Shown here: in pieces, positions 41,929-59,344 of the stretch
Layout of the letters: each line of letters begins with the position of its first letter
Position numbering within the stretch: the stretch's first letter is position 1
Assembly (NCBI RefSeq): GCF_021379005.1
Contig: NZ_CP075171.1
Coordinates: forward strand, 2,542,001-2,606,000
From: Leptodesmis sichuanensis A121
GTDB lineage: Bacteria > Cyanobacteriota > Cyanobacteriia > Leptolyngbyales > Leptolyngbyaceae
DNA: 64,000 nucleotides
Reading direction: 5' to 3'
Notes under the pieces: generated by a model
What the model saw: only the letters and a program-made list of their open reading frames with translations
Told to the model about the DNA's origin: nothing
Database searches by the model: none
Made by a program: the position numbers and the translations under genes

Positions 41929-44900
41929 TTACCCCATCTTCGCTGGCTGGCTTCCCATGGGCTGATCCCCTTTGGAGTGTCCATTGTGGCCGTTATGACC
42001 GTTGTGGCCGTTAGGAACCACGCTGGGAGGCATAACGGGGCGTGTTGGACTGGGGGAATGGTCGGCTAGAGGACGGGCGGCAAGGTGTTCGTAGAACTTC
42101 CAGCGCATATTCACGTCCTGTTGCGCTTCCTGAAGAAGCCGTTTGGCTTGTTCCGGTTTGCTCTTGGTCAGCATCTTGAAGCGGTTTTCTTCGTACATGG
42201 ACTGGCTGACGGGTTTCTTGGGCGCTCCCATATCCAGGTGGAGAGGATTTTTACCTTCGGCAAGCAGAGCGGGATTGTAGCGGTAGAGCAACCAGCGACC
42301 ACTTTCGACGATCGCCTTCTGATGGTTCATGGCCGTTTGCATATTGATGCCGTGAGCAATGCAATGGCTGTAGGCAATGATTAGCGATGGGCCATCATAG
42401 GCTTCCGCTTCCAGGAAAGCTTTCAGAGTATGTTCGTCTTTGGCTCCCATCGCCACGCTGGCCACATAGACATTGCCGTAGGTCATGGCAATCAGGCCCA
42501 AGTCTTTCTTGGGAGCGGGTTTGCCACCAGCGGCGAATTTGGCAACGGCTCCTCTGGGGGTGGCTTTGGAAGACTGACCTCCGGTATTGGAGTAGACTTC
42601 CGTATCCATCACCAGAATATTGACATTGTGGCCACTGGCGATCACATGATCTAACCCACCAAAGCCAATATCATACGCCCAGCCGTCACCCCCGATGATC
42701 CAGACACTCTTCTTCACCAGGTAATCGGCCAGGGACTTCAGGCTTCTGAGTTTGGCTTGGATAGGCGGATCGGTTTCGGTGGTCAGCAGGCGATCGAGGA
42801 TTTGCTTCAGTTCGGCCACTCGTTCCCGCTGTTCGTAAATATCCGCTTCCGATCGCTGCTCGGCGTTGATCAGGCCCGTCACGAGATGGTCGCCAATCAA
42901 ACTGCCCAGGTCTTGCAGCAGTTCAACGGCCATGTCGGCGTGCTTGTCGATCGCCAGCCGGAAGCCCAGACCAAATTCGGCATTGTCTTCAAACAGGCTG
43001 TTTGACCACGCAGGGCCGCGACCTTCCGCATTTTGCGTCCAGGGGGTAGTGGGCAGGTTGCCGCCATAGATGGAGGAACACCCGGTAGCATTGGCCACTA
43101 ACATACGATCGCCAAACAACTGAGAGGCCAGTTTCAGATAGGGGGTTTCACCACATCCAGCACAGGCTCCGGAGAATTCAAATAGGGGTTCCTGCAGTTG
43201 CTGTTGCCGAATCAAATTCAGTTTTAGATCGCGGCGATCGGGGGTGGGCAGACTCAGGAAGAAGTCCCAGTTTTCCCGTTCCTGTTCCCGCAGGGGTAAC
43301 TGCTCGGCCATGTTAATCGCCTTACGGGATGGCATGGATTTGTTCTTGGCAGGACAGACATCGACACAGATGCCACAGCCTGTACAGTCTTCTGCCGCTA
43401 CCTGAATCGTAAACTTCTGTCCGGTGAAATCGTGATCGCGGGCATTGGCCGATTTAAAGGTGTCGGGGGCATTTTCCAGGGCGGCAGGCTCGTAAGCTTT
43501 GCCCCGGATCACGCTGTGGGGACAGACCATCACACATTTGCCGCACTGAATGCAAACATCCGGATCCCAGACGGGAATTTCCTGAGCAATGTTACGTTTT
43601 TCCCATTTCGCGGTGCCTGTGGGATAGGTGCCATCGACAGGCATAGCACTGACGGGCAATTCATCCCCTTCTCGCGCAATCATTTTGCCCAAGACATCAT
43701 GGACAAAGGCCGGAGCGCAGTCAGGAATTGGGAACTGGAGCGATTGTGTGCTGGTGACAGTGGCCGGGATCTTCACCTCATACAGGTTTTCCAAAGTGTT
43801 GTCTACCGCTTGCAAATTCAGGCGGACAATTTCGGCCCCTTTCTTGCCGTAGGTCTTTTCGATCGATTTCTTGATGCGGGCGATCGCTTCCTCGCGGGGC
43901 AGCACTCCGGCCAGGGCAAAGAAGCAGGTTTGCATCACGGTATTAATCCGGCTACCCATGCCATTGGTACGGGCCACCTGATTGGCATCAATGGTGAACA
44001 CTTTGATGTGCTTGCGGATAATTTCTTCCTGGGCTTCGATCGGCAGGTGATCCCAGATCTCTTCCGGCGGATAGGGACTGTTGATCAATAGGGTGGCACC
44101 GGGAGCGGCAGATTTGAGAATATCCATGCGTTCCAGGAAACCCCATTGGTGACAACCGACAAAGTTGGCCTGCTCGATTAAATAGGTGGAGCGAATCGGG
44201 GTGGGGCCAAACCGCAGGTGAGACACGGTGGTGGAGCCAGATTTCTTCGAGTCGTAAACGAAATAGCCCTGAGCGTAGTTATCCGTTTCCTCGCCAATAA
44301 TTTTGATCGAGTTTTTGTTCGCACCCACCGTGCCATCCGCCCCCAGCCCGTAGAACATGGCCCGCACAACGCGATCGGATTCCGTGGAGAAGCGGGGATC
44401 GTAGTCCAGGGAGGTGTGGCTGACATCATCCAGGATGCCAACTGTAAAATGATTTTTCGGCCTGGGTTGCGCCAGGTTATCAAAGACAGCCTTCACCATG
44501 GCCGGAGTGAATTCTTTGGAAGACAGGCCATAGCGACCTCCGACCACTTTCGGCATGGCACCTTCCCAGGCTTCATTCAATGCCGTCACCACATCCAGAT
44601 ACAGGGGTTCGCCGCCTGCTCCCGGTTCTTTGGTGCGATCGAGCACGGCAATATTTTTTACGGTTTTCGGTAAGGCCGCCACCAGGCGATCGGCCGCCCA
44701 GGGACGGTAGAGCCGGACTTTCAGCACACCCACCTTGTCGCCTGTTGCCAGCAGGGCATCAACCGTTTCATGAGCCGTTTCACAGCCAGATCCCATCAGG
44801 ATGATCACGCGATCGGCATCCGGAGCCCCGTAGTAGTCAAACAGGTGATAGTGCCTTCCGGTCAGTTCCCCAAACTGATCCATCGCCTGTTGCACAATCT

Positions 44901-45624
44901 CAATGCAGGACTCGTAGTAGGGGTTGACCGTTTCCCGGGCCTGGAAGTAGACATCCGGGTTTTGGGCCGTACCGCGCAGAACGGGATGATCGGGGGTGAG
45001 GGCACGATCGCGGTGCGCCAGGATCCACTCCTGCCGGATCATCGCCTCCAGGTCGCGGTCTTCTAGCAGTTCGATCTTTTGGATTTCGTGGGAGGTGCGG
45101 AAGCCATCAAAAAAGTGAATGAAGGGAATGCGCGATTCCAGGGTAGCGGCCTGGGCAATCAGAGCGAAATCATGGGCTTCCTGGACGGAGGCGGAGCAGA
45201 GGAGGGCAAATCCTGTAGCGCGAACGGCCATCACATCACTGTGATCCCCGAAAATGGATAACCCTTGAGCGGCCAGCGATCGAGCCGCGACGTGAATTAC
45301 GGCACTGGTTAACTCTCCCGCAATCTTGTACATATTCGGGATCATTAACAGTAAGCCCTGAGAAGCCGTGAATGTAGTGGTTAAAGCTCCTGTTTGCAGG
45401 GCACCATGCACGGCTCCGGCGGCTCCGGCTTCACTTTGCATTTCGGCCACACTGGGCACCGTTCCCCATAAGTTCTTCCGTCCTTCGGACGTCCAGGTAT
45501 CGGCCCATTCACCCATCGGGGAAGCGGGAGTAATGGGATAAATGGCGATCACTTCATTAAGGGCATAGGCAACGCGGGCGACGGCTTCATTTCCATCCAA
45601 CGTTGCGTAAATTCTACTGTTCAT
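41929..45624 (-). CDS. nifJ: Pyruvate:ferredoxin (flavodoxin) oxidoreductase
   Basis: A 1231-residue single-chain PFOR. It oxidises pyruvate with CoA to acetyl-CoA and CO2 and reduces ferredoxin or flavodoxin. Seen: the N-terminal YPITPASPMGEWAD domain; two [4Fe-4S] motifs, CIQCGKCVMVCP (near 685) and CTGCGICVDVCP (near 745); FSGACAGCGETPY for the proximal cluster; and thiamine diphosphate binding GDGWAYDIGFGG (near 975) with DTEVYSNTGGQSSKATPRG. The C-terminal tail is unusual: four Asn-Gly-His repeats coded by 9-base repeats (41977-42015). The gene is transcribed divergently from the hox operon over a shared region of about 1 kb. No nif genes are near, so it serves fermentation or mixotrophic redox balance. 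Reduced ferredoxin made here can feed the Hox hydrogenase. Confidence 0.97.
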   Translation of the reverse strand: MNSRIYATLDGNEAVARVAYALNEVIAIYPITPASPMGEWADTWTSEGRKNLWGTVPSVAEMQSEAGAAGAVHGALQTGALTTTFTASQGLLLMIPNMYKIAGELTSAVIHVAARSLAAQGLSIFGDHSDVMAVRATGFALLCSASVQEAHDFALIAQAATLESRIPFIHFFDGFRTSHEIQKIELLEDRDLEAMIRQEWILAHRDRALTPDHPVLRGTAQNPDVYFQARETVNPYYESCIEIVQQAMDQFGELTGRHYHLFDYYGAPDADRVIILMGSGCETAHETVDALLATGDKVGVLKVRLYRPWAADRLVAALPKTVKNIAVLDRTKEPGAGGEPLYLDVVTALNEAWEGAMPKVVGGRYGLSSKEFTPAMVKAVFDNLAQPRPKNHFTVGILDDVSHTSLDYDPRFSTESDRVVRAMFYGLGADGTVGANKNSIKIIGEETDNYAQGYFVYDSKKSGSTTVSHLRFGPTPIRSTYLIEQANFVGCHQWGFLERMDILKSAAPGATLLINSPYPPEEIWDHLPIEAQEEIIRKHIKVFTIDANQVARTNGMGSRINTVMQTCFFALAGVLPREEAIARIKKSIEKTYGKKGAEIVRLNLQAVDNTLENLYEVKIPATVTSTQSLQFPIPDCAPAFVHDVLGKMIAREGDELPVSAMPVDGTYPTGTAKWEKRNIAQEIPVWDPDVCIQCGKCVMVCPHSVIRGKAYEPAALENAPDTFKSANARDHDFTGQKFTIQVAAEDCTGCGICVDVCPAKNKSMPSRKAINMAEQLPLREQERENWDFFLSLPTPDRRDLKLNLIRQQQLQEPLFEFSGACAGCGETPYLKLASQLFGDRMLVANATGCSSIYGGNLPTTPWTQNAEGRGPAWSNSLFEDNAEFGLGFRLAIDKHADMAVELLQDLGSLIGDHLVTGLINAEQRSEADIYEQRERVAELKQILDRLLTTETDPPIQAKLRSLKSLADYLVKKSVWIIGGDGWAYDIGFGGLDHVIASGHNVNILVMDTEVYSNTGGQSSKATPRGAVAKFAAGGKPAPKKDLGLIAMTYGNVYVASVAMGAKDEHTLKAFLEAEAYDGPSLIIAYSHCIAHGINMQTAMNHQKAIVESGRWLLYRYNPALLAEGKNPLHLDMGAPKKPVSQSMYEENRFKMLTKSKPEQAKRLLQEAQQDVNMRWKFYEHLAARPLADHSPSPTRPVMPPSVVPNGHNGHNGHNGHSKGDQPMGSQPAKMG

Positions 45625-46612: not shown

Positions 46613-47143
46613 ATGCAATCTGCAACTGATCGACCCAAGGCACAAGAGGCCGCCAAAACAAAACCAGCCCATCCCAGTGGCGATCGTCGCTTCAAAACGC
46701 TGGACATGACAATGAAGCGCTTTCAATACAAGCCGGATGCGTTGATTGAAGTGCTGCATAAAGCGCAGGAAGCATTTGGCTACCTGGAAGAAGATGTGTT
46801 GCTGTATATTGCCAGGGGGCTAAAACTGCCACTCAGCAAGGTTTACGGGACGGCCACATTTTATCATTTGTTCTCTCTTAAGCCAGCAGGTGCCCATACC
46901 TGCGTGGTTTGTTTGGGAACAGCCTGTTATGTGAAAGGGAGTGACAAGGTATTGGCAGAACTGGAAAAAGAACTGGGCATTAAAGTTGGCGAAACCACAC
47001 CCGATGGTAAGGTGTCGTTGATGGCGGCTCGCTGCATTGGAGCCTGTGGCATCGCTCCAGCCGTCGTCTTTGATGGCAAGGTAGCCGGAAAACAAGAGCC
47101 AGCGATGGCGTTAGAACATATCAAAGCCTGGGAAACCGAATAG
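46613..47143 (+). CDS. hoxE: Bidirectional [NiFe] hydrogenase diaphorase subunit HoxE
   Basis: A 176-residue subunit related to the 24-kDa (NuoE) protein of complex I. It carries a thioredoxin-fold [2Fe-2S] cluster; ligands are Cys100 and Cys105 (CLGTACY) and Cys141 and Cys145 (CIGACGIAP). The helical N-terminal part PDALIEVLHKAQEAFGYLEED is as in NuoE. In the HoxEFUYH complex it is part of the electron input from NAD(P)H or ferredoxin. It is the first gene of the hox operon; hoxF starts 21 bases after its stop. ATG 46613 follows AAAGGATATCGCG. Confidence 0.96.
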   Translation: MQSATDRPKAQEAAKTKPAHPSGDRRFKTLDMTMKRFQYKPDALIEVLHKAQEAFGYLEEDVLLYIARGLKLPLSKVYGTATFYHLFSLKPAGAHTCVVCLGTACYVKGSDKVLAELEKELGIKVGETTPDGKVSLMAARCIGACGIAPAVVFDGKVAGKQEPAMALEHIKAWETE

Positions 47144-47164: not shown

Positions 47165-48805
47165 ATGGATTTAGCCGATCTGTTGGAAATTGCGGAAACC
47201 CAACGCACGAAACAAAAGCCGACTCGTGTTCACTGTTGCACGTCTACGGGATGTCGGGCGGCCCGATCGCTGGAAGTTTTGCACAACCTGAAGAGCGCCA
47301 CAGAAGCTGCCGGGTTGCAGGATCAGGTGGAAGTGGTCGGAGTCGGATGCAGTGGCTTTTGTGGACGCGGCCCACTGGTGGAAATTGATCCCAAGAATGT
47401 GCTGTACGAAGAGGTAAAGCCAGAGGATGCGGCCAGCATCATTGACACCTTGAAGGGGGGGACAGCGACGGCTACCCAGGGCGATTTAAACCACCCGTTT
47501 TTCTCTCGCCAACTCAAGATAGTTCGGCAACACAGCGGTAAGCTCGATCCCGAAAGTATTGAAGAATATATTGCGGTGGGGGGCTACCGCTCTCTCTACA
47601 AAGCGCTATACGAGATGTCTCCGGCAGAGGTGGTTGAGGAAATTACCAAAAGCGGATTGCGGGGGCGTGGCGGCGGCGGCTATCCCACAGGCTTAAAGTG
47701 GGCGACCGTAGCCAAAATGCCAGGAGATCAAAAGTATGTGATTTGTAATGGAGATGAAGGCGATCCCGGTGCGTTTATGGATCGCAGTGTCTTAGAAAGT
47801 GATCCCCATCTGGTATTGGAAGGGATGGCGATCGCTGGGTATGCAGTGGGTGCTAATCATGGTTTTATTTATGTGCGGGCAGAATATCCCTTAGCTATTC
47901 AACGCTTGCAAAAAGCGATTCAGCAGGCAAAGAAATATGGATTGCTGGGAAGCCAGATCTTTGATTCCCATTTCGATTTCAAAGTGGATATTCGCATTGG
48001 TGCCGGAGCGTTTGTCTGTGGTGAAGAAACGGCATTGATTCAATCGATCGAAGGGGGGCGAGGTAATCCCAGAACTCGCCCTCCCTATCCTGCTCAGTCC
48101 GGCCTCTGGGAATGTCCTACCCTGATCAATAATGTGGAATCTTTTGCCAATATCACTGCCATTATTCGGGAAGGTTCCGAGTGGTATGCCAGCATCGGTA
48201 CCGAGAAAAGTAAAGGTACGAAAATCTTTGCGCTGACTGGCAAAATCCGCAATAACGGCCTGATTGAAGTGCCAATGGGAATTACGCTACGGGAAATTGT
48301 GGAAGAGATGGGCGGAGGCGTTCCCGATGGCGAAGTCAAAGCGGTGCAAACGGGTGGCCCTTCCGGGGGTTGCATTCCGGCTTCACTGTTGGATACCCCC
48401 GTGGATTACGATTCCCTGATGGCGATCGGCTCTATGATGGGTTCCGGCGGCATGGTCGTGATGGATCAGACCACCAACATGGTGGAAGTTGCCCAGTTTT
48501 ACATGGAGTTCTGCCGGGGCGAAAGTTGCGGCAAATGTATTCCCTGCCGTGCCGGAACCGTTCAACTCTACGGTATGCTCACCCGCTTGCTGAAGAAGCA
48601 AGCCACCCAGGCAGATTTAGAGAAGTTAAAAGACCTCTGCTACATGGTCAAAGAAACCAGTCTCTGCGGCCTGGGAATGAGCGCTCCCAATCCTGTTCTC
48701 AGTACCTTACGTTATTTCACTGAAGAGTATGAAGCCTTACTCCAACCTCCTGCCTACCTGAATGGCAAAGTTACTGCTGGCAGTGTCGAAAACTCGGAGC
48801 TTTGA
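47165..48805 (+). CDS. hoxF: Bidirectional hydrogenase diaphorase subunit HoxF
   Basis: A 546-residue NuoF-like flavoprotein. The N-terminal domain has a [2Fe-2S] pattern HCCTSTGC and [10 protein letters not shown]. Then come the NADH and FMN sites, [16 protein letters not shown] and [20 protein letters not shown], a SLBB domain, and a [4Fe-4S] motif [16 protein letters not shown] with the fourth Cys in [13 protein letters not shown]. It oxidises or reduces NAD(H) and passes electrons to HoxU and on to the hydrogenase half. GGAGAAGG stands before ATG 47165. Its stop region overlaps a small AAAACTC/GGAGCTTT inverted repeat. Confidence 0.97.
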
Positions 48806-48891: not shown

Positions 48892-49608
48892 ATGTCAGTC
48901 AAGACGCTCAAAATTGACAACAAAGATATTGCGATCGAAGAAGGTGCAACTATCCTGCAAGCGGCGCAGGAAAATGGCATCCCGATTCCTACTTTGTGTC
49001 ACCTGGAAGGGGTGACGGATGTGGGGGCCTGTCGCCTGTGCCTGGTTGAAATTAAGGGCACGAATCGGCTACTACCAGCTTGTGTAACAGAAGTCGCCGA
49101 AGGCATGGAAATTCAGACTAACACTGAAAAATTGCAGGAATACCGCAAGATGACGGTGGAGTTGCTGTTCTCTGAAGGCAACCATATTTGTGCCGTATGC
49201 GTGGCGAACGGTAACTGTGAACTGCAGGATGTGGCAATTCAGGTAGGCATGGATCATACCCGGTTTACCTATCGCTTTCCCGATCGCGGTGTGGATATGT
49301 CCCACGAACTATTCGGCATTGACCACAACCGTTGCATTCTCTGTACCCGCTGTGTACGGGTGTGTGACGAGATCGAAGGTGCCCACGTTTGGGATGTGGC
49401 CATGCGAGGAGCGGCCTGCTATATCGTCTCTGGCCTTAACCAACCCTGGGGTGAAGTTGATGCCTGTACCTCCTGTGGTAAATGTGTGGATGCCTGCCCG
49501 ACTGGATCCATTTTCAGGAAGGGCGAAACCACAGCCGAGAAAGAACGCGATCGGGCCAAGTTGGAATTCTTGGTGAACGCGAGAGAGAAGCACCAATGGA
49601 CGAGGTAG
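48892..49608 (+). CDS. hoxU: Bidirectional hydrogenase diaphorase subunit HoxU
   Basis: A 238-residue iron-sulfur subunit like the N-terminal part of NuoG. A ferredoxin-like [2Fe-2S] motif reads CHLEGVTDVGACRLCLVEI with its last ligand in LLPACVTEV. Next are the His/Cys motif HICAVCVANGNCELQ and two [4Fe-4S] motifs, CILCTRCVRVCDEI and CTSCGKCVDACPTG. It wires electrons between the flavin in HoxF and the hydrogenase HoxYH. Start ATG 48892 follows CAAGGAGAACCT, a strong ribosome site. HoxY starts 23 bases after its stop. Confidence 0.97.
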   Translation: MSVKTLKIDNKDIAIEEGATILQAAQENGIPIPTLCHLEGVTDVGACRLCLVEIKGTNRLLPACVTEVAEGMEIQTNTEKLQEYRKMTVELLFSEGNHICAVCVANGNCELQDVAIQVGMDHTRFTYRFPDRGVDMSHELFGIDHNRCILCTRCVRVCDEIEGAHVWDVAMRGAACYIVSGLNQPWGEVDACTSCGKCVDACPTGSIFRKGETTAEKERDRAKLEFLVNAREKHQWTR

Positions 49609-49631: not shown

Positions 49632-50180
49632 ATGAGCAAAATCAAATTCGCCACCGTATGGTTAGCCGGATGTTCAGGTTGTCACATGTCGTTTCTGGAT
49701 TTGGACGAGTGGTTGATTGACTTGGCGCAATCTGTGGATGTCGTGTTCAGTCCGGTGGGCAGTGACATTAAGGACTATCCAGAAGAAGTGGATGTGTGCC
49801 TGGTGGAAGGGGGGGTGGCCAATGAAGAAAACTTAGAATTGGCAATCAAACTGCGACAGCACACCAAGGTTGTGATTTCGTTTGGCGATTGTGCGGTGAC
49901 AGCGAACGTTCCGGCGATGCGAAATATGCAGGGAGGAGCCGATGGCGTATTGAAACGTGCTTATTTAGAACTGGCAGATACCGGAAAACAACTGCCCCAC
50001 GAACCGGGAATTGTCCCAGAGTTACTCGATCGCGTCATTCCCTTGCACGAAGTCATCCCTGTTGATATCTTTATGCCCGGTTGCCCACCTCCTGCTGAGC
50101 GGATCAAGGCAACGATCGAACCCCTTCTGAGAGGGGAACATCCAAATATGCAGGGGCGGGAGATGATCAAGTTTGGTTAG
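49632..50180 (+). CDS. hoxY: Bidirectional [NiFe] hydrogenase small subunit HoxY
   Basis: A 182-residue small subunit holding the proximal [4Fe-4S] cluster: CSGCHMSFLD (Cys near 14 and 17), GDCAVTANVPAMRN and GCPPPAERI. It lacks the medial and distal clusters of uptake hydrogenases, as expected for HoxY. I chose ATG 49632 because it gives the standard MSKIKFATVWLAGCSGCH start and has GAGG upstream; ATG 49596 would overlap hoxU and adds unconserved residues. It is followed by two small AAAACTC-type hairpins and then by the CBS-CP12 gene rather than directly by hoxH. Confidence 0.96.
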   Translation: MSKIKFATVWLAGCSGCHMSFLDLDEWLIDLAQSVDVVFSPVGSDIKDYPEEVDVCLVEGGVANEENLELAIKLRQHTKVVISFGDCAVTANVPAMRNMQGGADGVLKRAYLELADTGKQLPHEPGIVPELLDRVIPLHEVIPVDIFMPGCPPPAERIKATIEPLLRGEHPNMQGREMIKFG

Positions 50181-50310: not shown

Positions 50311-50922
50311 ATGATGAAAGCTTCGGAAATTATGACAAAGGATGTGGTGACGATTCGCGGGTCGGCGACGGTGGCGGAGGCGATCGAACTGATGAAGATC
50401 AGAGGGTATCATACCCTGGTGGTCGAGCGCCGTCATGAGCAGGATGCCTATGGAATCGTGACAGAGAGCGATATTGTCGGTAAGGTAGCGGCCTTTGGTA
50501 AGGATCCGAAACGGATGCGGGTCTATGAAATTATGACGAAACCCTGTATTTCGATTAATCCTGATCTGGGTGTGGAATATGTGGCGCGGCTATTTATTAA
50601 CACAGGCATTCATAGTGCTCCAGTGATTCAGGGGAAACTCCTGGGTCTGGTGACGATGAGTGATATCTTGCATAAGAGTGATTTCGTTGAGCAACCGAAA
50701 GAAATTACCTTAAGCAAAGAAATCCAAAAGGCGATCGAAAATGCCAGGGCTGTTTGTGCTGAAAAAGGGGCGGCCTCTAAGGAGTGTGCCGTGGCCTGGG
50801 AAGTCGTGGAAGAGTTACAGGCGGAAGCGTCTCATCAACAAGCAAGGACGCACAAAAGTGCATTTGAAGAATATTGTGAGGAATTTCCCGAAGCCTTAGA
50901 GGCTCGGATGTATGACGTTTAA
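50311..50922 (+). CDS. CBS-CP12 fusion protein within the hox operon
   Basis: A 203-residue fusion. Residues 1-125 are two CBS domains (MKASEIMTKDVVTI, GIVTESDIVGKV, RVYEIMTKPCISI, LGLVTMSDIL), which bind adenine nucleotides in other proteins. Residues 134-203 are a CP12 domain: AIENARAVCAEKGAASKECA with the N-terminal Cys pair (Cys149, Cys159), and the core AWEVVEELQAEASHQ. CP12 inhibits GAPDH and phosphoribulokinase in the dark through disulfides. Here the C-terminal pair is incomplete: YCEEFPEALEARMYDV keeps Cys189, but the place of its partner is Ala198. CBS-CP12 fusions are known in cyanobacteria. Its position between hoxY and hoxH suggests that it reports energy or redox state to hydrogen metabolism or ties it to the Calvin cycle (inference). 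ATG 50311 is preceded by GGAGGAGG. Confidence 0.93.
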   Translation: MMKASEIMTKDVVTIRGSATVAEAIELMKIRGYHTLVVERRHEQDAYGIVTESDIVGKVAAFGKDPKRMRVYEIMTKPCISINPDLGVEYVARLFINTGIHSAPVIQGKLLGLVTMSDILHKSDFVEQPKEITLSKEIQKAIENARAVCAEKGAASKECAVAWEVVEELQAEASHQQARTHKSAFEEYCEEFPEALEARMYDV

Positions 50923-50962
50923 TTTGCAATTAGTTTGGGATGTTTAAACGGGGAGGGGCGTG

Positions 50963-52390
50963 ATGTCAAAGACTGTTGTAATTGATCCGGTAACTCGCAT
51001 TGAAGGACATGCTAAAATTTCCGTTTTCTTGAATGATGCGGGCGAAGTGGATAACGCTCGCTTCCACGTAGTGGAATACCGGGGCTTTGAAAAATTCTGC
51101 GAAGGTAGACCGTTTACGGAAATGGCTGGAATCACAGCCCGAATTTGTGGCATTTGTCCAGTCAGCCACCTGCTGGCTTCGGCAAAAACGGGTGACAAGA
51201 TTCTGGCGGTGCAGATTCCCCCAGCGGCTGAAAAATTGCGGCGGTTGATGAATTTGGGGCAACTGACTCAATCCCATGCGCTGTCCTTCTTCCACCTCAG
51301 CAGCCCCGATTTCTTTTTGGGTTGGGATAGTGATCCGGCCAAGCGTAATGTGTTTGGATTGATTGCTGAAAATCCCGATCTTGCCCGTGCCGGAATTCGC
51401 TTGCGGCAGTTTGGTCAGACGGTAATCGAAATCTTAGGCGCGAAAAAGATCCATGCGGCCTGGGCAGTTCCCGGTGGAGTCCGATCGCACCTTTCCGAAG
51501 AAGGGCGGCAATGGATCCGCGATCGCCTGCCCGAATCTTTTGATACGATTACCCTCGGTCTCAACCTGTTCAAAACCATGCTGGACACCCAGTTCAAGGA
51601 TGAGCCTGCCATCTTTGGTGAATTTCCCTCCCTGTTTATGAGTTTGGTCGGCAAAGATGGCGAATGGGAGCACTATGGAGGCCACCTGCGGTTTACTGAT
51701 AGCCAGGGCAATATTGTTGCGGATGGGTTGAGCGAAGACGATTACCATGACTTTATCGGTGAAGCCGTCGAACCCTGGTCGTACCTCAAGTTCCCTTACT
51801 ACAAGCCAATGGGCTATCCAGAGGGGATGTATCGCGTTGGGCCTCTGGCACGACTGAACACCTGCAGTTATATTGGCACGGAAGCAGCCGATCGCGAACT
51901 TCAAGAGTTACGGCAACGGGCAGGCGGAGTCCCCACCTCGTCCTTCCTGTACCACTACGCCCGGTTGATTGAAATCCTTGCCTGTCTGGAGAAGATCCAG
52001 CAATACATGGATGACCCAGATCTGAGCAGCGATCGTATTCGTGCCCATGCAGGAGTCAACCAACTGGAAGCGGTAGGAGTTAGCGAAGCTCCCAGAGGCA
52101 CCCTATTCCACCACTACAACGTGGACGAAAACGGCTTGATTCAAAAGGTGAATTTAATCATTGCTACCGGACAAAACAATCTAGCAATGAACAAGACTGT
52201 CACCCAAATTGCCCAAAATTACATCCACAACAACGACATTTCCGAAGGATTTCTCAACCGGATTGAACACGGGATTCGCTGTTTTGATCCCTGTCTTTCC
52301 TGCTCCACCCATGCCGTTGGCCAAATGCCCCTGCATGTGGAATTAATTGCCCCCGATGGTGCGGTTATCAAAGAAGTTTATCGAAGTTAG
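50963..52390 (+). CDS. hoxH: Bidirectional [NiFe] hydrogenase large subunit HoxH
   Basis: The 475-residue catalytic subunit. The four Cys ligands of the NiFe centre lie in [10 protein letters not shown] (near 62-65) and [10 protein letters not shown] near the C-terminus. After that motif comes a tail ([15 protein letters not shown] and on) that the protease HoxW removes after nickel insertion; hoxW is present at 57865. Together with HoxY it makes or consumes H2 using NAD(P)H or ferredoxin. I chose ATG 50963, with GGGAGGGG close upstream; GTG 50960 is directly before. The hyp maturation genes are not in this window. Next downstream is a palindromic repeat, then adhE. Confidence 0.97.
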
Positions 52391-52748: not shown

Positions 52749-55433
52749 ATGACGAATCAAGTTACAAATACCGGAGAATTGGATGCCCTGATCCAGCGAG
52801 TTCACATTGCTCAGGAAAAATACGCCACGTTTACTCAGGAACAGGTCGATCGCATTTTCAAGAAAGCAGCACTGGCGGCTAACGCGGCTCGCATTCCGCT
52901 AGCAAAACTGGCAGTTGCGGAAACAGGAATGGGGATCGCAGAAGATAAGGTGATCAAAAATCACTTTGCATCGGAGATTATTTACAACAAGTACAAACAC
53001 GAAAAAACCTGCGGGGTGATTGAAGCCGATAAATCCTTCGGCATTCAGCGCATTGCTGAACCTGTGGGGATTCTGGCGGGAATCGTACCGACCACAAATC
53101 CGACTGCGACCACCATCTTTAAAGCGTTGATTGCCTTAAAGACACGCAATGGCATTATCTTTTCTCCCCATCCCCGTGCTAAGGAATGCACTGTTGCCGC
53201 CGCCAAAGTGATCTTAGAAGCCGCGATCGCAGCGGGCGCACCAGAAGACATTATTGGCTGGATTGATGAGCCGACGGTCGCCCTGTCCCAGGCATTGATG
53301 CAAAACAACAACATCAAGCTGATCCTGGCAACGGGTGGCCCCGGTATGGTAAGAGCGGCTTATTCATCCGGTCGTCCGTCGCTGGGTGTGGGTGCCGGAA
53401 ACACACCTGCCATCATTGACTCCAGTGCTCACATTAAGATGGCGGTTTCTTCCATCATCATCAGTAAAACCTTTGATAATGGCATGATCTGTGCCAGCGA
53501 ACAGTCAGTGATTGTACTGGATGATGTGTATGAGCAGGTCAGAGAAGAGTTTCGCGATCGCGGAGCCTATTTTCTGACTCCAGAGGAGCGAGATCGGCTG
53601 AGTCGGGTCTTGATCGTAGACGGTCACTTAAACGCCGATGTGGTAGGTCAACCCGTAGAGCGCATTGCTGCCATGATTGACCTCACCCTACCCCTCCAAA
53701 CCCGATTGCTGATTGCCGAAGTATCTGAGATTGGCAGTGAAGAGCCGTTCTCCTACGAAAAACTTTGTCCGGTGCTGGCGATGTACCGTGCCAGTGATTT
53801 TGCAGATGCGGTGGATAAAGCCAGTCGCCTGGTACTGTTTGGGGGACGAGGACACACGGCGGCGCTCTACACGGATCCCGCCGATCGGGTGCATATTCAC
53901 CAGTTTGAAGATCGGGTACAGACGGCGCGGGTATTGATCAACACACCTTCCTCTCAGGGAGCGATCGGGGATCTGTATAACTTCCGCCTGGATCCATCCT
54001 TGACGTTGGGTTGTGGCACCTGGGGCGGCAACTCGGTGTCTGAAAACGTGGAACCACGCCACTTGCTCAACATCAAAACAGTGGCTGAGCGGCGGGAAAA
54101 TATGCTGTGGTTCCGGGTGCCGCCCAAAATTTACTTCAAGTATGGCGCACTGCCAGTCGCTCTGCGGGAGTTGGCCGACAAAAAACGGGCCTTCATTGTC
54201 ACCGACAAACCAATTTACGAATTGGGAATGACACGGGCGATCGAAGAAGTGCTGGACGAAATCGGTGTGAAGTACGACACCTTTTATGATGTGGAACCCG
54301 ATCCTTCGTTGGATACAGTGAATCGTGGTTTGGAACTAATTCGCACCTTCAACCCGGATGTCATCATTGCCTTTGGGGGTGGTTCCCCCATGGATGCGGC
54401 CAAGATTATCTGGTTGATGTATGAGCATCCTGAAATTGAATTTGAAGGCTTGGCAATGCGGTTTATGGACATCCGCAAGCGGGTTTATGAACTGCCACCT
54501 TTGGGCCAAAAGGCGACGATGGTTGCTATTCCCACCACCTCCGGCACGGGTTCAGAAGTGACTCCCTTTGCTGTGGTCACCGATCGCCGCCACAACATCA
54601 AATATCCCCTGGCGGACTATGCCCTCACCCCCAACATGGCGATCATCGATCCGGAACTGGTGTTGACCATGCCTAAGTCCCTGACGGCTTACGGGGGTGT
54701 GGATGCGCTGGTACACGCGATCGAAGCCTATGTCTCTGTCCTGGCCTCGGAATATACCAACGGTCTGGCACTGGAGGCTATCCGACTGCTGTTCAAATAT
54801 CTACCCAGTGCGTACCACAACGGTAGACAAGATCTGAAAGCACGGGAGAAAGTTCACTATGCCGCGACAATGGCAGGAATGGCTTTTGCCAATGCCTTTC
54901 TCGGGATTTGTCACTCCATGGCGCACCAATTGGGGGCTACCTTCCACATTCCGCATGGACTCGCCAATGCCTTGATGATCTCCCATGTGATTCGCTACAA
55001 CGCCACCGATGCGCCCTTTAAGCAAGCCATCTTTCCCCAATACAAGTATCCCAATGCTAAGTGGCGCTATGCCCGGATTGCTGATTACCTGGGTCTGGGG
55101 GGAGCCACGGAAGCCGAAAAAGTCGATCGTCTGATTGCCGCTGTCGAAGCTCTCAAACGCGACCTGGATATTCCAGGCAGTATCCGGGAATACATGAACG
55201 ACGACACCCTGTTTTATGCCCAGGTCGATCACATGGCGGATCAGGCATTCGACGACCAGTGTACGGGTGCAAATCCGCGCTATCCCCTGATCAGCGACCT
55301 GCGGCAACTCCTGATGGAAGCCTATCATGGGAAACCCCTACCCCCTGTCAACGAGTTGCCCAGTCAGGAAACGGATACTCCGATCGCAGAGTCGCTGCAG
55401 AGAGCACTGGATGATCTAACCGTATCCCTGTAG
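52749..55433 (+). CDS. adhE: Bifunctional acetaldehyde-CoA/alcohol dehydrogenase
   Basis: An 894-residue fusion. Residues 1-440 are a CoA-dependent aldehyde dehydrogenase, with the catalytic Cys in MICASEQSVIV and the nucleotide site in ATGGPGMVRAAYSSG. Residues 455-894 are an iron-dependent alcohol dehydrogenase: FGGGSPMDAAK, TTSGTGSEVTPF and the metal His/Asp residues in GGVDALVHAIEAYVS and GICHSMAHQLGATFHIPHG. It turns acetyl-CoA into ethanol using two NADH. I chose ATG 52749, preceded by AAGGAAGAG; the open frame upstream to 52617 is not conserved. AdhE is found in only part of the cyanobacteria and may have been acquired. Here it directly follows hoxH, so NADH can be disposed of as H2 or ethanol from the same region. 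Confidence 0.96.
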   Translation: MTNQVTNTGELDALIQRVHIAQEKYATFTQEQVDRIFKKAALAANAARIPLAKLAVAETGMGIAEDKVIKNHFASEIIYNKYKHEKTCGVIEADKSFGIQRIAEPVGILAGIVPTTNPTATTIFKALIALKTRNGIIFSPHPRAKECTVAAAKVILEAAIAAGAPEDIIGWIDEPTVALSQALMQNNNIKLILATGGPGMVRAAYSSGRPSLGVGAGNTPAIIDSSAHIKMAVSSIIISKTFDNGMICASEQSVIVLDDVYEQVREEFRDRGAYFLTPEERDRLSRVLIVDGHLNADVVGQPVERIAAMIDLTLPLQTRLLIAEVSEIGSEEPFSYEKLCPVLAMYRASDFADAVDKASRLVLFGGRGHTAALYTDPADRVHIHQFEDRVQTARVLINTPSSQGAIGDLYNFRLDPSLTLGCGTWGGNSVSENVEPRHLLNIKTVAERRENMLWFRVPPKIYFKYGALPVALRELADKKRAFIVTDKPIYELGMTRAIEEVLDEIGVKYDTFYDVEPDPSLDTVNRGLELIRTFNPDVIIAFGGGSPMDAAKIIWLMYEHPEIEFEGLAMRFMDIRKRVYELPPLGQKATMVAIPTTSGTGSEVTPFAVVTDRRHNIKYPLADYALTPNMAIIDPELVLTMPKSLTAYGGVDALVHAIEAYVSVLASEYTNGLALEAIRLLFKYLPSAYHNGRQDLKAREKVHYAATMAGMAFANAFLGICHSMAHQLGATFHIPHGLANALMISHVIRYNATDAPFKQAIFPQYKYPNAKWRYARIADYLGLGGATEAEKVDRLIAAVEALKRDLDIPGSIREYMNDDTLFYAQVDHMADQAFDDQCTGANPRYPLISDLRQLLMEAYHGKPLPPVNELPSQETDTPIAESLQRALDDLTVSL

Positions 55434-55881: not shown

Positions 55882-56154
55882 ATGGCAAAAGAAAACTTAT
55901 TCCTCTGTATGGGATCAGCGTGTCATCAGTTGGGTGTATATGAAGTACTGCCCAAACTGCAGATGTTGATTCAAACTCACAAGCTGGAAGACATTCTGGA
56001 ACTCAAAGGCTCGTTCTGTTTGGAAACTTGTAGTCATGGCATTGTCATGAAGTTTAAAGGTCAGCATTTCTTGAATATCAGTTCTCAGAACATCGAAGAA
56101 AAGTTTACGCAGGAAATTCTTCCAGTCATTAAGGCAAAACTCAGCCATGTCTGA
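55882..56154 (+). CDS. [2Fe-2S] thioredoxin-like ferredoxin protein
   Basis: A 90-residue protein with the NuoE/HoxE-like cluster pattern: Cys9 and Cys14 (CMGSACHQLG), then Cys46 and Cys50 (CLETCSHG). It is a stand-alone version of the thioredoxin-fold [2Fe-2S] domain that ends NADH-dependent hydrogenase subunits. I chose ATG 55882; GTT ATG sequence before it gives no ribosome site. The next gene (PAS protein) overlaps its end by 8 bases, and a SpoIIE-type phosphatase follows. This trio occurs beside [FeFe] hydrogenases of presumed sensory function in clostridia and relatives (from memory). Here it sits between adhE and hoxW and may pass the redox state of the hydrogenase pool to the PAS protein. 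Confidence 0.85.
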   Translation: MAKENLFLCMGSACHQLGVYEVLPKLQMLIQTHKLEDILELKGSFCLETCSHGIVMKFKGQHFLNISSQNIEEKFTQEILPVIKAKLSHV

Positions 56155-56668
56155 CAGTGGTGTCACTCACAATAGCCTCTGGAAGCGGTTGTGGGAATAT
56201 GATCCCAACGGCTTACTTGTTGTTGATCCTGATCTGTATATCCGGGTTGTCAATCCCGCGTTTTGTCGTATGTTTAACGTCGCAATGCCGGATGATGTGT
56301 TGGGTCATCCCGTGCAGACCTTACTGGATGATGTAAACGACTTCAAAAAGGTTTGGCAAGATGACATTGTAATTCAGGGGAAACAGAAAGAGTACCCCCG
56401 GTATGGGTTGTATGTGAGCGAAGTCATTTTTTCCATTGAAGAGGAGGGAATTATTGCCTGCATCATGGTGGATAGGAGTCATGAGTTAGAACGCAAGCGG
56501 GAACTGGAAAAACTGAAGCATGAAACCGTGAAGCAAGTCAATGAAGTGGTAGACAATCAGATGAAAGTGGTTCAGGAAATTGCTGGACTGTTGGGGGAAA
56601 CCACTGCCGAAACAAAAGTCAGTTTACTCAAAATTATTGGCATGTTAGAACGGGAGCCATTTATCTAG
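56147..56668 (+). CDS. PAS domain protein of the hydrogenase-linked cassette
   Basis: A 173-residue protein. A PAS domain covers about residues 10-115 (LWEYDPNGLLVVDPDLYIRV, AFCRMFNVAMPDDVLGHPV). After a short linker, EIAGLLGETTAETKVSLLKI ends the protein; this tail, VVQEIAGLLGETTAETK, is the same as in PAS proteins encoded with [FeFe] hydrogenases in Firmicutes as I remember them. There is no kinase or DNA-binding domain, so the output must go by protein contact, most simply to the SpoIIE-type phosphatase coded 18 bases downstream. Cys residues occur in the PAS part (near residues 39 and 106) and could hold a cofactor, but this cannot be decided by eye. Start ATG 56147 overlaps the upstream gene. 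Confidence 0.85.
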   Translation: MSDSGVTHNSLWKRLWEYDPNGLLVVDPDLYIRVVNPAFCRMFNVAMPDDVLGHPVQTLLDDVNDFKKVWQDDIVIQGKQKEYPRYGLYVSEVIFSIEEEGIIACIMVDRSHELERKRELEKLKHETVKQVNEVVDNQMKVVQEIAGLLGETTAETKVSLLKIIGMLEREPFI

Positions 56669-56686
56669 CGATCGCACAAATTACCT

Positions 56687-57853
56687 ATGCCAGTTGATAG
56701 CTTTCTCGATATCCACACCTCCAGCCTGAACAGAAAAGGTGAAGAATTGTGTGGCGATAAAGTGAAGTATTTGAAAACAGAAAATAAGACTATTATTGTC
56801 CTATCGGATGGGCTGGGAAGTGGGGTGAAGGCTAACATCCTGGCAACCCTGACCACCGAAATTTTATTGAAAATGTTAACGGCGGATATTCCCCTTGTAG
56901 AGGTGCTAAAGACTGTTATTGCAACTCTACCCATCTGCCAGGTACGGAAGATCGCCTATTCTACCTTCACCATTATTGAAATCAATAGTGAAACGAATCG
57001 CTTCAAAGTCATTAATTTTGATAACCCCAATTGCTTCTATTTTCGTCAGGGTAAAGCCGTGAATCTGGAAAGTCATACCGAAGAAATTCTCAACCGCAAG
57101 ATTCACATTGCAAAAGGACAGCTATCCCGGGGAGATTTCTTAGCGGCAGCCAGCGATGGGATTCTCTATGCAGGCATGGGAATCACTCTTAACTTCGGTT
57201 GGGGTTGGGAGAATATTTCTCAATTTATTGAAGAAGTGTTAGCACAAAAATCAAAAACGGCCAGGGAAATTGTTCAGGATGTAATTCAGACAACCCGATC
57301 GCTGTATCAGGGGGAAGTCGGTGATGATGCAACTTTTGTGGGTGTGTATGTCAGAAGTCGAAATCCACTGATGATCTTTACTGGTCCACCGTTGAATGAA
57401 GACACAGACGAGGTTCATATCGATCGTCTGCTCAATTTCCAGGGACGCAAAGTGATCTGTGGGGGAACAACGGGCAACATTGTCGCTAATTACCTGGGGG
57501 AAACGATCGAGATGGATCTGTCCACTATCCGCAAGGAGCTACCCCCGATTGGTATGCTCAGTGCCATTGATCTGGTGACGGAGGGAATCTTAACCATTTC
57601 TAAAGCAACGGAATATATCAAGAATTGCGAGGGTGATCTGAGCCGTCTCAAATTTGATAATAATGGGGCATACTTGCTGGCACGGGAGATCCTGCAGGCT
57701 GATTCAATTCATTTTCTGGTGGGTCAAAGTATCAATGAGTTTTACCAAAATCCCTTACTGCCTAAAAACATTTCAATCCGCCGTAGTTTAATTGAAGATC
57801 TGGTAAAATTTCTGCGGGACAAACAGAAAGAAGTAACGATCGAATATTGTTAA
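56687..57853 (+). CDS. SpoIIE-type protein phosphatase of the hydrogenase-linked cassette
   Basis: A 388-residue soluble PP2C-type Ser/Thr phosphatase. Metal-binding Asp residues are conserved: Asp24 (EELCGDKV), Asp41 (VLSDGLGSGVKAN), Asp157 (AASDGILYAG) and Asp213/214 (VGDDATFVGV). Residues 1-220 form the SpoIIE domain. A second part of about 165 residues follows with VICGGTTGNIVANYLGE; this extension also belongs to the hydrogenase-linked family, and its role is unknown. SpoIIE proteins normally dephosphorylate anti-sigma antagonists; no STAS or anti-sigma gene is in the window, so the target is open. It probably takes input from the upstream PAS and [2Fe-2S] proteins. HoxW starts 11 bases after its stop. 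Confidence 0.88.
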   Translation: MPVDSFLDIHTSSLNRKGEELCGDKVKYLKTENKTIIVLSDGLGSGVKANILATLTTEILLKMLTADIPLVEVLKTVIATLPICQVRKIAYSTFTIIEINSETNRFKVINFDNPNCFYFRQGKAVNLESHTEEILNRKIHIAKGQLSRGDFLAAASDGILYAGMGITLNFGWGWENISQFIEEVLAQKSKTAREIVQDVIQTTRSLYQGEVGDDATFVGVYVRSRNPLMIFTGPPLNEDTDEVHIDRLLNFQGRKVICGGTTGNIVANYLGETIEMDLSTIRKELPPIGMLSAIDLVTEGILTISKATEYIKNCEGDLSRLKFDNNGAYLLAREILQADSIHFLVGQSINEFYQNPLLPKNISIRRSLIEDLVKFLRDKQKEVTIEYC

Positions 57854-57864
57854 GCAAATCTAAA

Positions 57865-58305
57865 ATGAACTATCTGGTCATTGGCTATGGCAACTCCTTA
57901 AGAGGGGATGATGGGGCAGGTCAACGAGTTGCCGAACAGGTTGAGGACTGGCATCTGGACAATGTTCGATCGCTCGCCCTGCACCAACTGACTCCAGAAG
58001 TGGCCGCTGACATTGCCGAGGCCGGAACGGTAATTTTTGTGGATGCCACTTTACCTACGGAGGAGCCGATCACCCAGGTTCAGTTGGTGCCGATTCAGGC
58101 GCAGGACACTCCAACCCACTGGGCCCATTTTCAAGATCCGCGATCGCTCCTGACTCTCACTCAACGGGTCTATGGTACTGTTCCTCCCAGTTGGTGGATC
58201 TTAATTCCTGCAATAGATTTTGAATTTGGTGAGCAGTTTTCTGCTATCACCCAACAGGGAATTAGAGATGCATTAATACAGATTAAAGATTTGCTTAACG
58301 ATTGA
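57865..58305 (+). CDS. hoxW: Hydrogenase maturation protease HoxW
   Basis: A 146-residue endopeptidase of the HyaD/HybD family. It cuts the C-terminal tail of HoxH after nickel has been inserted. Recognition: YGNSLRGDDGAG near the N-terminus (metal-binding acidic residue), TPEVAADIAEAGTVIFVDAT with the second Asp, and the SLLTLTQRVYG and PSWWILIPAIDFEFGE blocks of the HoxW subfamily. Start ATG 57865; a TTG at 57847 is in frame but inside the previous gene. Its distance from hoxH (about 5.5 kb) with adhE and the cassette in between indicates that the whole block is a functional unit for the hydrogenase. Confidence 0.92.
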   Translation: MNYLVIGYGNSLRGDDGAGQRVAEQVEDWHLDNVRSLALHQLTPEVAADIAEAGTVIFVDATLPTEEPITQVQLVPIQAQDTPTHWAHFQDPRSLLTLTQRVYGTVPPSWWILIPAIDFEFGEQFSAITQQGIRDALIQIKDLLND

Positions 58306-58343: not shown

Positions 58344-58589
58344 GCATCACCAGGAAATCAATTTCCTGGCTCATCGCCAAAGTCATCTAAAGACGACTGG
58401 ACAAGAGTTTCAGTCCATTTGCATGGACTTGCGCTGTTAGCCCAAAATTTATCTTAGCGGGTTGACAACAGAGACATGAGCCTTTCAGAACTTTTGTCAG
58501 TCAATCAGCTTGCGCTGTTAGCCCAAAATTTATTTTAGCGGGTTGACAACAGAGACATGAGCCTTTCAGAACTTTTGTCAGTCAATCAG
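58344..58589 (+). mobile_element. MITE-like element, copy C (5'-truncated, with tandem 3' duplication)
   Basis: Homologous to the elements at 18554 and 23087 from GCATCACCAGG on; the left terminal repeat is missing or decayed. The same hairpins CCAGGAAAT/ATTTCCTGG and AGTCCAT/ATGGACT are present. The 3' part (81 bases, 58428-58508) is repeated directly at 58509-58589 with a single difference. Both copies end TTTTGTCAGTCAATCAG. I see no target duplication for this copy. Confidence 0.8.
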
Positions 58590-59344
58590 CCGAAGACTGC
58601 AAACTTTCTCATGCCTGGTGCCGCATAGGAATATTAACCAATGACAATCCTAATTTAGCCGATCATTGCATCTAAACCTGGCCCAAGTCCAGAACCGTAG
58701 TTTCTTCTAGGGGAAAACTCCAGTTTTCTAGCTAACCTTGGTTTACCTACTTTCTCGTAGTTATTATCAATAATTTCATGAATTCATGATAAACAACTAA
58801 CTTGTTGTTTTTAAGCTACGTTTTGTCATCAATTGCCAACAAAAACTCTTTGGTTTGTTTCCAGCAGCGAATTCGGCTTGTCCCTGGTCAGTTGATTAGC
58901 CCGTTGCTCATAAACAGAGTATTGCTCACGCCTTCTGCCCAATGCCAGATATGGCCTAATGACCAATGACCAACGAAAAAATAGTGTTTCATATTATAAA
59001 TTCAGTTCCCTATGCTACTAAATTGAAGTATTATTGAAGAGGGAAACAAAGCAAGATGCCGTTATAAAAGACGTAGTAAAGCCAGAAAGCAATTGCATCA
59101 TTTGTGGAGTTTGAAGTTTCTTCTAAGTAAATAGATTGTGATCAAGGTGTTCAAGTTGTCGTCCGGGAATATAAAGCAAAACTTAAGAGTGAATTTGGGT
59201 TGGTACTGGTTTCCAGAGTTTCGTTGATTTTCACAAAGTGCCTCCATTGAATGCAGTTATTAGCTGCAACCCAATTCTTGTTCCTTTCAAAGGTACTGTC
59301 CCTGTCACTCGATCCACCCTCGATAGTCGATAGGAGATTAAAAG
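58590..59344. other. Long leader region upstream of pckA
   Basis: Holds a dispersed repeat at 58680-58755, AATGACC-type short repeats at about 58958-58974 and AT-rich sequence. The pckA promoter should be here. The last 15 bases before pckA contain TAGGAG, a ribosome site. I see no open frame, riboswitch or terminator of note. Confidence 0.45.
58680..58755 (+). repeat. Dispersed ~75-bp repeat, copy 2
   Basis: Relative of 41816-41890, starting with CCAAGTCCAGAACCGTAGTT and continuing with scattered differences through TTTTCTAGCT. Here CCAAG can pair with CTTGG about 50 bases on. It lies between the MITE-like element and the pckA leader. Confidence 0.6.

Follow-up and report, generated by a model that had tools for sequence, protein, structure and literature searches.

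A FeS-PAS-SpoIIE cassette within a cyanobacterial Hox hydrogenase cluster, a probable H-cluster-less relative of phosphatase-linked sensory [FeFe] hydrogenase sets

The window, by which we mean the whole stretch of 64,000 nucleotides of Leptodesmis sichuanensis A121 that was analysed, carries a cassette of three plus-strand genes at 55882-57853, flanked by adhE and hoxW (Table 1). These encode a small iron-sulphur protein (FeS), a PAS protein and a SpoIIE-type phosphatase. FeS and PAS overlap by 8 bases, PAS and SpoIIE are separated by 18 bases, and the hoxW ATG (57865) lies 11 bases past the SpoIIE stop; given this short spacing, FeS, PAS, SpoIIE and hoxW probably form one operon. The original prediction had described three tightly packed genes between adhE and hoxW, and all three reading frames are indeed found there. 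The genes run in the order nifJ, hoxEFUY, CBS-CP12, hoxH, adhE, FeS, PAS, SpoIIE and hoxW, with nifJ alone on the minus strand. The composition is that of a cyanobacterial [NiFe] Hox cluster, with hoxE and hoxU equivalogs above cut-off and hoxF, hoxY, hoxH and hoxW all present. A search with Fe_hyd_lg_C (PF02906) returned 0 matches anywhere in the genome (single contig, 5.35 Mb), which bears out the prediction that no [FeFe] hydrogenase is present. Scans for promoters and terminators gave chance-level results only. At 58428-58590, 3' of hoxW, an 81-bp unit stands in two tandem copies with a 98% match. CP12 or CBS-CP12 genes recur in the vicinity of hox at further cyanobacterial loci (L046, L048, L055, L069, L092).

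Table 1. Coordinates of the cassette genes and their neighbours in the window
Feature	Position	Strand	Remarks
FeS	55882..56154	+	90-aa thioredoxin-like [2Fe-2S] protein (predicted), C9-X4-C...C-X3-C; related to the [2Fe-2S] domain at the C-terminus of T. maritima HydA
PAS	56147..56668	+	stand-alone PAS protein, 173 aa; long helical tail EIAGLLGETTAETK, invariant Cys40; homologous to HydS C-terminus
SpoIIE	56687..57853	+	388-aa PP2C-type serine/threonine phosphatase (predicted)
Phosphatase C-terminal domain	57359..57850	+	CGGTTGN motif; without known family; common to HydS-linked phosphatases
hoxW, hydrogenase maturation protease	57865..58305	+	likely same operon as cassette
hoxE	46613..47143	+	equivalog model above cut-off
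hoxF	47165..48805	+	
hoxU	48892..49608	+	equivalog model above cut-off
hoxY	49632..50180	+	start set by homology
hoxH, large subunit	50960..52390	+	
adhE, acetaldehyde/alcohol dehydrogenase	52749..55433	+	AdhE model above cut-off
nifJ, pyruvate:ferredoxin oxidoreductase	41929..45624	-	by reading and recurrence beside hox
CBS-CP12 fusion gene	50311-50922	+	inside hox cluster, between hoxY and hoxH

Comparison of FeS with Pfam gave a weak match to the thioredoxin-like [2Fe-2S] family (E 0.037), and its best match among solved structures is the [2Fe-2S] domain at the C-terminus of the bifurcating HydA of T. maritima (7p5h; E 3.6e-6). Of 83 relatives, 82 retain the cysteines of its CX4C...CX3C pattern; only a broken copy from a Trichodesmium MAG departs from it. 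Judged by its sequence, FeS is a [2Fe-2S] thioredoxin-like protein, and a small [2Fe-2S] gene is likewise adjacent in HydS sets.

The PAS protein narrowly exceeds the PAS_9 cut-off (27.7 bits against 27) and is 35% identical to the end of R. albus HydS across 144 residues; profile alignment with the HydS C-terminus by hhalign extends over 155 columns (E 9e-23). A C-terminal PAS domain followed by an EIAxLLGETTAETK tail is a trait of HydS, and both are found in the window protein. Its 173 residues comprise the PAS region only, with no H-cluster domain (Fe_hyd_lg_C), and the [4Fe-4S] CX2CX4CX(n)C domain that precedes PAS in 12 of 12 HydS proteins occurs in none of the 55 split PAS proteins. By homology, the window PAS gene is thus the tail of HydS without its hydrogenase. 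The original prediction had read the ending of this protein as the mark of a companion of group C hydrogenases; the relation to HydS holds, but EIAGLLGETTAETK corresponds to the C-terminus of HydS itself, not to a companion. Every one of the 55 stand-alone PAS proteins has Cys40 within an NPAFC-like motif, and aligned HydS sequences have other residues at that site; the motif could possibly have arisen by chance, since a PAS domain of NifL has a similar NPSFC. Structure prediction yields a PAS fold with two helices, one of them 41 residues long, and with pLDDT of about 90 in the PAS core and lower values in the tail, and matches to the fold include the PAS domains of LOV, FixL and NifL.

The phosphatase is recognized by the SpoIIE domain model PF07228 (E 2.7e-18; score 67 bits, cut-off 25), and structure search returned a PP2C fold like that of B. 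subtilis SpoIIE. Residues D41, D157 and D213/D214 are invariant in the alignment of relatives, indicating that the predicted PP2C metal-site motifs are intact. Over its full length (385 residues) it is 38% identical to the HydS-partner phosphatase of R. albus and shares with the HydS-linked phosphatases the CGGTT C-terminal domain, so that the kinship proposed from its GGTTGN extension was well founded. Of 12 relatives checked, 11 have the GGT motif of this domain. The domain matched no Pfam family, and the structure search listed PP2C-domain matches only; a hit to Rad9 (E 0.036) was taken as noise. No dedicated kinase or STAS gene was found in the cassette. At 841-844 kb of the same genome (L161:5401-7771), genes for an RsbW-like kinase, a STAS protein and a response regulator that bears a SpoIIE-type phosphatase domain (assigned by reading) are clustered, apparently as a separate partner-switching system.

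We scored orthologues of SpoIIE, PAS, FeS and HoxH across a sample of 390 genomes of the cyanobacterial class. HoxH was detected in 127 genomes and SpoIIE in 26, every one of which is HoxH-positive; PAS occurs in exactly these 26, and FeS in 26/26. The cassette genomes span nine family codes, and the hypergeometric p for co-occurrence with hoxH is ~3e-14, a figure that ignores kinship and is hence not a true probability. PF02906 had 0 matches in the other 25 cassette genomes as in the window's own, so that an overlooked [FeFe] hydrogenase at another genomic site can be rejected. SpoIIE lies at most ~5 kb from hoxH in 17/26 genomes; in the rest it is unlinked, with all genes of the set kept. 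Even within one family the block can be split, FeS-PAS standing behind hoxH with SpoIIE elsewhere in one genome (G187) and SpoIIE standing beside hoxW in two others (G109, G119). Gene order is nonetheless conserved in dozens of cyanobacterial contigs, and the arrangement is therefore not due to chance; the expected clade beside hox was recovered in dozens of cyanobacterial genomes, as the proposed tie to hox had implied. The adhE gene adjoins the cassette in the window, L034 and L041, and is near it in L089.

HoxH of all 26 cassette genomes is at least 75% identical to the window HoxH, and ~60 genomes with a more distant HoxH have no cassette; the limitation to genomes with a close HoxH may reflect shared ancestry. 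The cassette is absent from 101 of the 127 sampled hoxH-bearing genomes and so is not needed for Hox. Its carriers belong to genera that are widespread and in use, among them Planktothrix, Arthrospira, Oscillatoria, Phormidium, Okeania and relatives of Leptolyngbya. At two Nodosilinea-type loci (L043, L044) the cassette has no linkage to hox, and a conserved gene of ~335 aa comes after it. In the Trichodesmium MAG (L090), the copies of hoxU, hoxH, FeS, PAS and SpoIIE all seem to be damaged, which would point to joint decay of hydrogenase and cassette or to assembly errors.

A genome scan located the cassette also in Anaerolineae and in one Desulfobacteraceae bin. At two Anaerolineae-type loci (L072, L082) it lies behind or near an [FeFe] HydABC-like set, whose HydA has no C-terminal [2Fe-2S] domain; this is compatible with FeS being that domain in detached form, and is not proof of it. 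At two others (L080, from Bellilinea, and L081) the cassette stands directly behind HoxE-HoxF, in genomes with no match to [FeFe] hydrogenase. Hox-like HoxYH-W genes occur elsewhere in 5/8 Chloroflexi genomes (43-60% identity for HoxY/HoxH), and the examined flanks of four Chloroflexi cassettes (L071, L073, L074, L084) contain no hydrogenase neighbour recognizable by homology. A CBS-like gene lies upstream of HoxE in L080 and L081. Directly upstream of the cassette in L082 (716-1315) is a gene for a Rex-like redox repressor; Rex likewise heads the R. albus cluster.

Genomes of Firmicutes and of Gastranaerophilales type carry the fused form, in which PAS is the end of HydS. One Desulfobacteraceae bin has both a stand-alone PAS cassette and a HydS-fused cassette (L078, L148). 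In the phosphatase tree, all split-form rows fall on one side of a branch supported at 100/100, and the cyanobacteria on one side of a branch supported at 100/99. The tree contains a single change between fused and split forms, whose direction is not fixed because the root is not, and several fused rows sit on very long branches. In this tree the H-cluster-less form appears as one well-supported clade that includes cyanobacteria and Anaerolineae. That the cyanobacteria inherited the cassette vertically from the fused HydS set found in their sister class (genomes of Gastranaerophilales type) is not favoured, as the cyanobacterial sequences group with those of Anaerolineae. The original prediction, that the cassette may have been recruited to sense Hox or the ferredoxin/NADH pool, is partly sustained: the hydrogenase link stands, but the H-cluster-less clade is not unique to Hox, its Anaerolineae members being associated with HoxEF or with the [FeFe] HydABC-like set.

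These comparisons indicate that all three cassette proteins are homologous to parts of the HydS set. We consider it probable that the cassette is a redox-signalling module that has a common ancestor with the phosphatase-linked set of sensory [FeFe] hydrogenases (HydS/HfsABC), lacks the H-cluster and works as the relay proposed below; it is best read as a version of the phosphatase-linked sensory module that has no H-cluster and was rewired to NAD-linked hydrogenases. This reading draws on the homologies with R. albus, the co-occurrence of the genes in the same 26 genomes, the retention of the set when dispersed and the single split clade, and also on the absence of [4Fe-4S] from split PAS proteins, the adjacency to HoxEF in L080 and L081 and the PAS and PP2C folds. 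Against it we count the lack of a kinase or STAS gene in the cassette, the 101/127 hoxH genomes without it, the four lone Chloroflexi cassettes and the weak Pfam match of FeS.

We infer the electron input, signal, PAS cofactor, phosphatase substrate and output of such a relay along the following lines. The [2Fe-2S] protein would take electrons from an NAD-linked hydrogenase or its diaphorase, or from the ferredoxin/NADH pool, the hydrogenase or its diaphorase being the probable input. The PAS protein would turn redox state into a change of its helical tail, which would in turn switch the SpoIIE-type phosphatase. The latter may dephosphorylate a Ser/Thr-phosphorylated regulator, by default a STAS anti-anti-sigma-like protein, that would then adjust genes of dark fermentation, for example hox, adhE and nifJ. 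The working hydrogenase may here replace the missing dedicated H2 sensor; since the cassette was found only in hoxH-bearing cyanobacteria among those sampled, it probably reports the redox state of Hox to the cell. That the relay would act on dark fermentation is suggested by the adjacency of adhE and by the relatives of the cassette, which themselves act on fermentation. Deletion of hfsA or hfsB in Thermoanaerobacterium raised adhE transcripts two- to threefold, with no rise on deletion of hfsC or hfsD, and part of the AdhE effect may arise post-transcriptionally (PMC5707799). The eight-gene cluster of R. albus with adhE, HydS and phosphatase, arranged as Rex-adhE-PTase-FeS-FeS-hydS-spoIIE-hydrogenase, showed a 111-fold drop in co-culture with an H2 consumer (PMC6776011). 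More tentatively, a module that elsewhere has its own H-cluster sensor may have been rewired once, before its cyanobacterial spread, to read a catalytic NAD-linked hydrogenase through a small [2Fe-2S] shuttle and a PAS protein bearing a new, invariant cysteine; the same unit could then serve [NiFe] Hox and [FeFe] HydABC, their common part being a HoxEF-type diaphorase.

The proteins could instead act on the enzyme directly, with FeS serving Hox as an additional electron-transfer subunit or as a repair factor, the phosphatase setting the activity of Hox (or AdhE) by dephosphorylating the enzyme, and no transcriptional relay. The location of the cassette genes inside the hox-hoxW block, the resemblance of FeS to the bifurcating HydA domain and the possibly post-transcriptional component of the AdhE effect would all suit such an accessory role; we nevertheless judge it unlikely, as PAS with PP2C is a signalling architecture and most Hox enzymes work without the cassette. 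A sensor of general redox state or of light and dark that only accompanies hox, its PAS reading oxygen or NAD(P)H by a cofactor of its own (flavin, haem or a Cys40 switch) and independently of hydrogenase, strikes us as quite improbable: the cassette never occurs without hoxH in the 390 genomes, and FeS is always kept with PAS and SpoIIE. The invariance of Cys40, the LOV, FixL and NifL fold matches and the Chloroflexi cassettes that are not beside hydrogenase genes are the observations in its favour. That unrelated general-stress genes came to lie here by chance, or that the cassette is a decaying remnant, is hardly credible; the generic PAS and SpoIIE labels and the broken Trichodesmium copy might suggest it, but the conserved order, the invariant residues and the strict co-occurrence with hoxH seen in the survey already refute it.

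Little is understood of how cyanobacteria regulate their bidirectional Hox hydrogenase under dark anoxic conditions. LexA and others have been proposed as Hox regulators. The cassette adds a candidate regulator that, among the cyanobacteria sampled, is strictly associated with Hox. Its parts, and the idea of a phosphatase-linked sensory hydrogenase (HydDB class C3), were known already; of an H-cluster-less version tied to Hox, no description was found in the open-access literature searched. The published hox maps consulted (PMC3858816 and PMC2674450) leave the cassette genes unnamed. The cassette also shows that a sensory hydrogenase's readout half can occur on its own, and it becomes testable whether the phosphatase reports the redox state of a working hydrogenase.

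Several known systems resemble the cassette in part. The regulatory hydrogenase of Ralstonia, with HoxJ and HoxA, to which PMC5707799 also refers, is likewise a case of hydrogenase-linked signalling of hydrogen metabolism, but employs a histidine kinase together with a dedicated [NiFe] sensor. The partner-switching phosphatases SpoIIE, RsbU and RsbX share the PP2C fold and the SDG...SDG...GDD metal motifs; unlike them, the window phosphatase has an extra C-terminal domain without known family and no STAS or anti-sigma neighbour. HydDB [FeFe] class C3, termed 'phosphatase-linked' (PMC5037454), shares hydrogenase-linked serine/threonine phosphatase signalling, but is defined by an H-cluster catalytic subunit, of which the window cassette has none. 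By description, HfsABCD of Thermoanaerobacterium (PMC5707799, PMC11837493) is similar in its HydS-like HfsB with PAS, its serine phosphatase HfsC and its genetic link to adhE, and differs in having the [FeFe] hydrogenase proteins HfsB and HfsD. Relative to the HydS cluster of R. albus, the window PAS protein lacks the H-cluster and [4Fe-4S] domains, and the partner is [NiFe] Hox in place of a downstream ferredoxin-only [FeFe] hydrogenase; both loci have a [2Fe-2S] gene, the same PAS helical tail, a full-length SpoIIE with the CGGTT domain, and adhE nearby.
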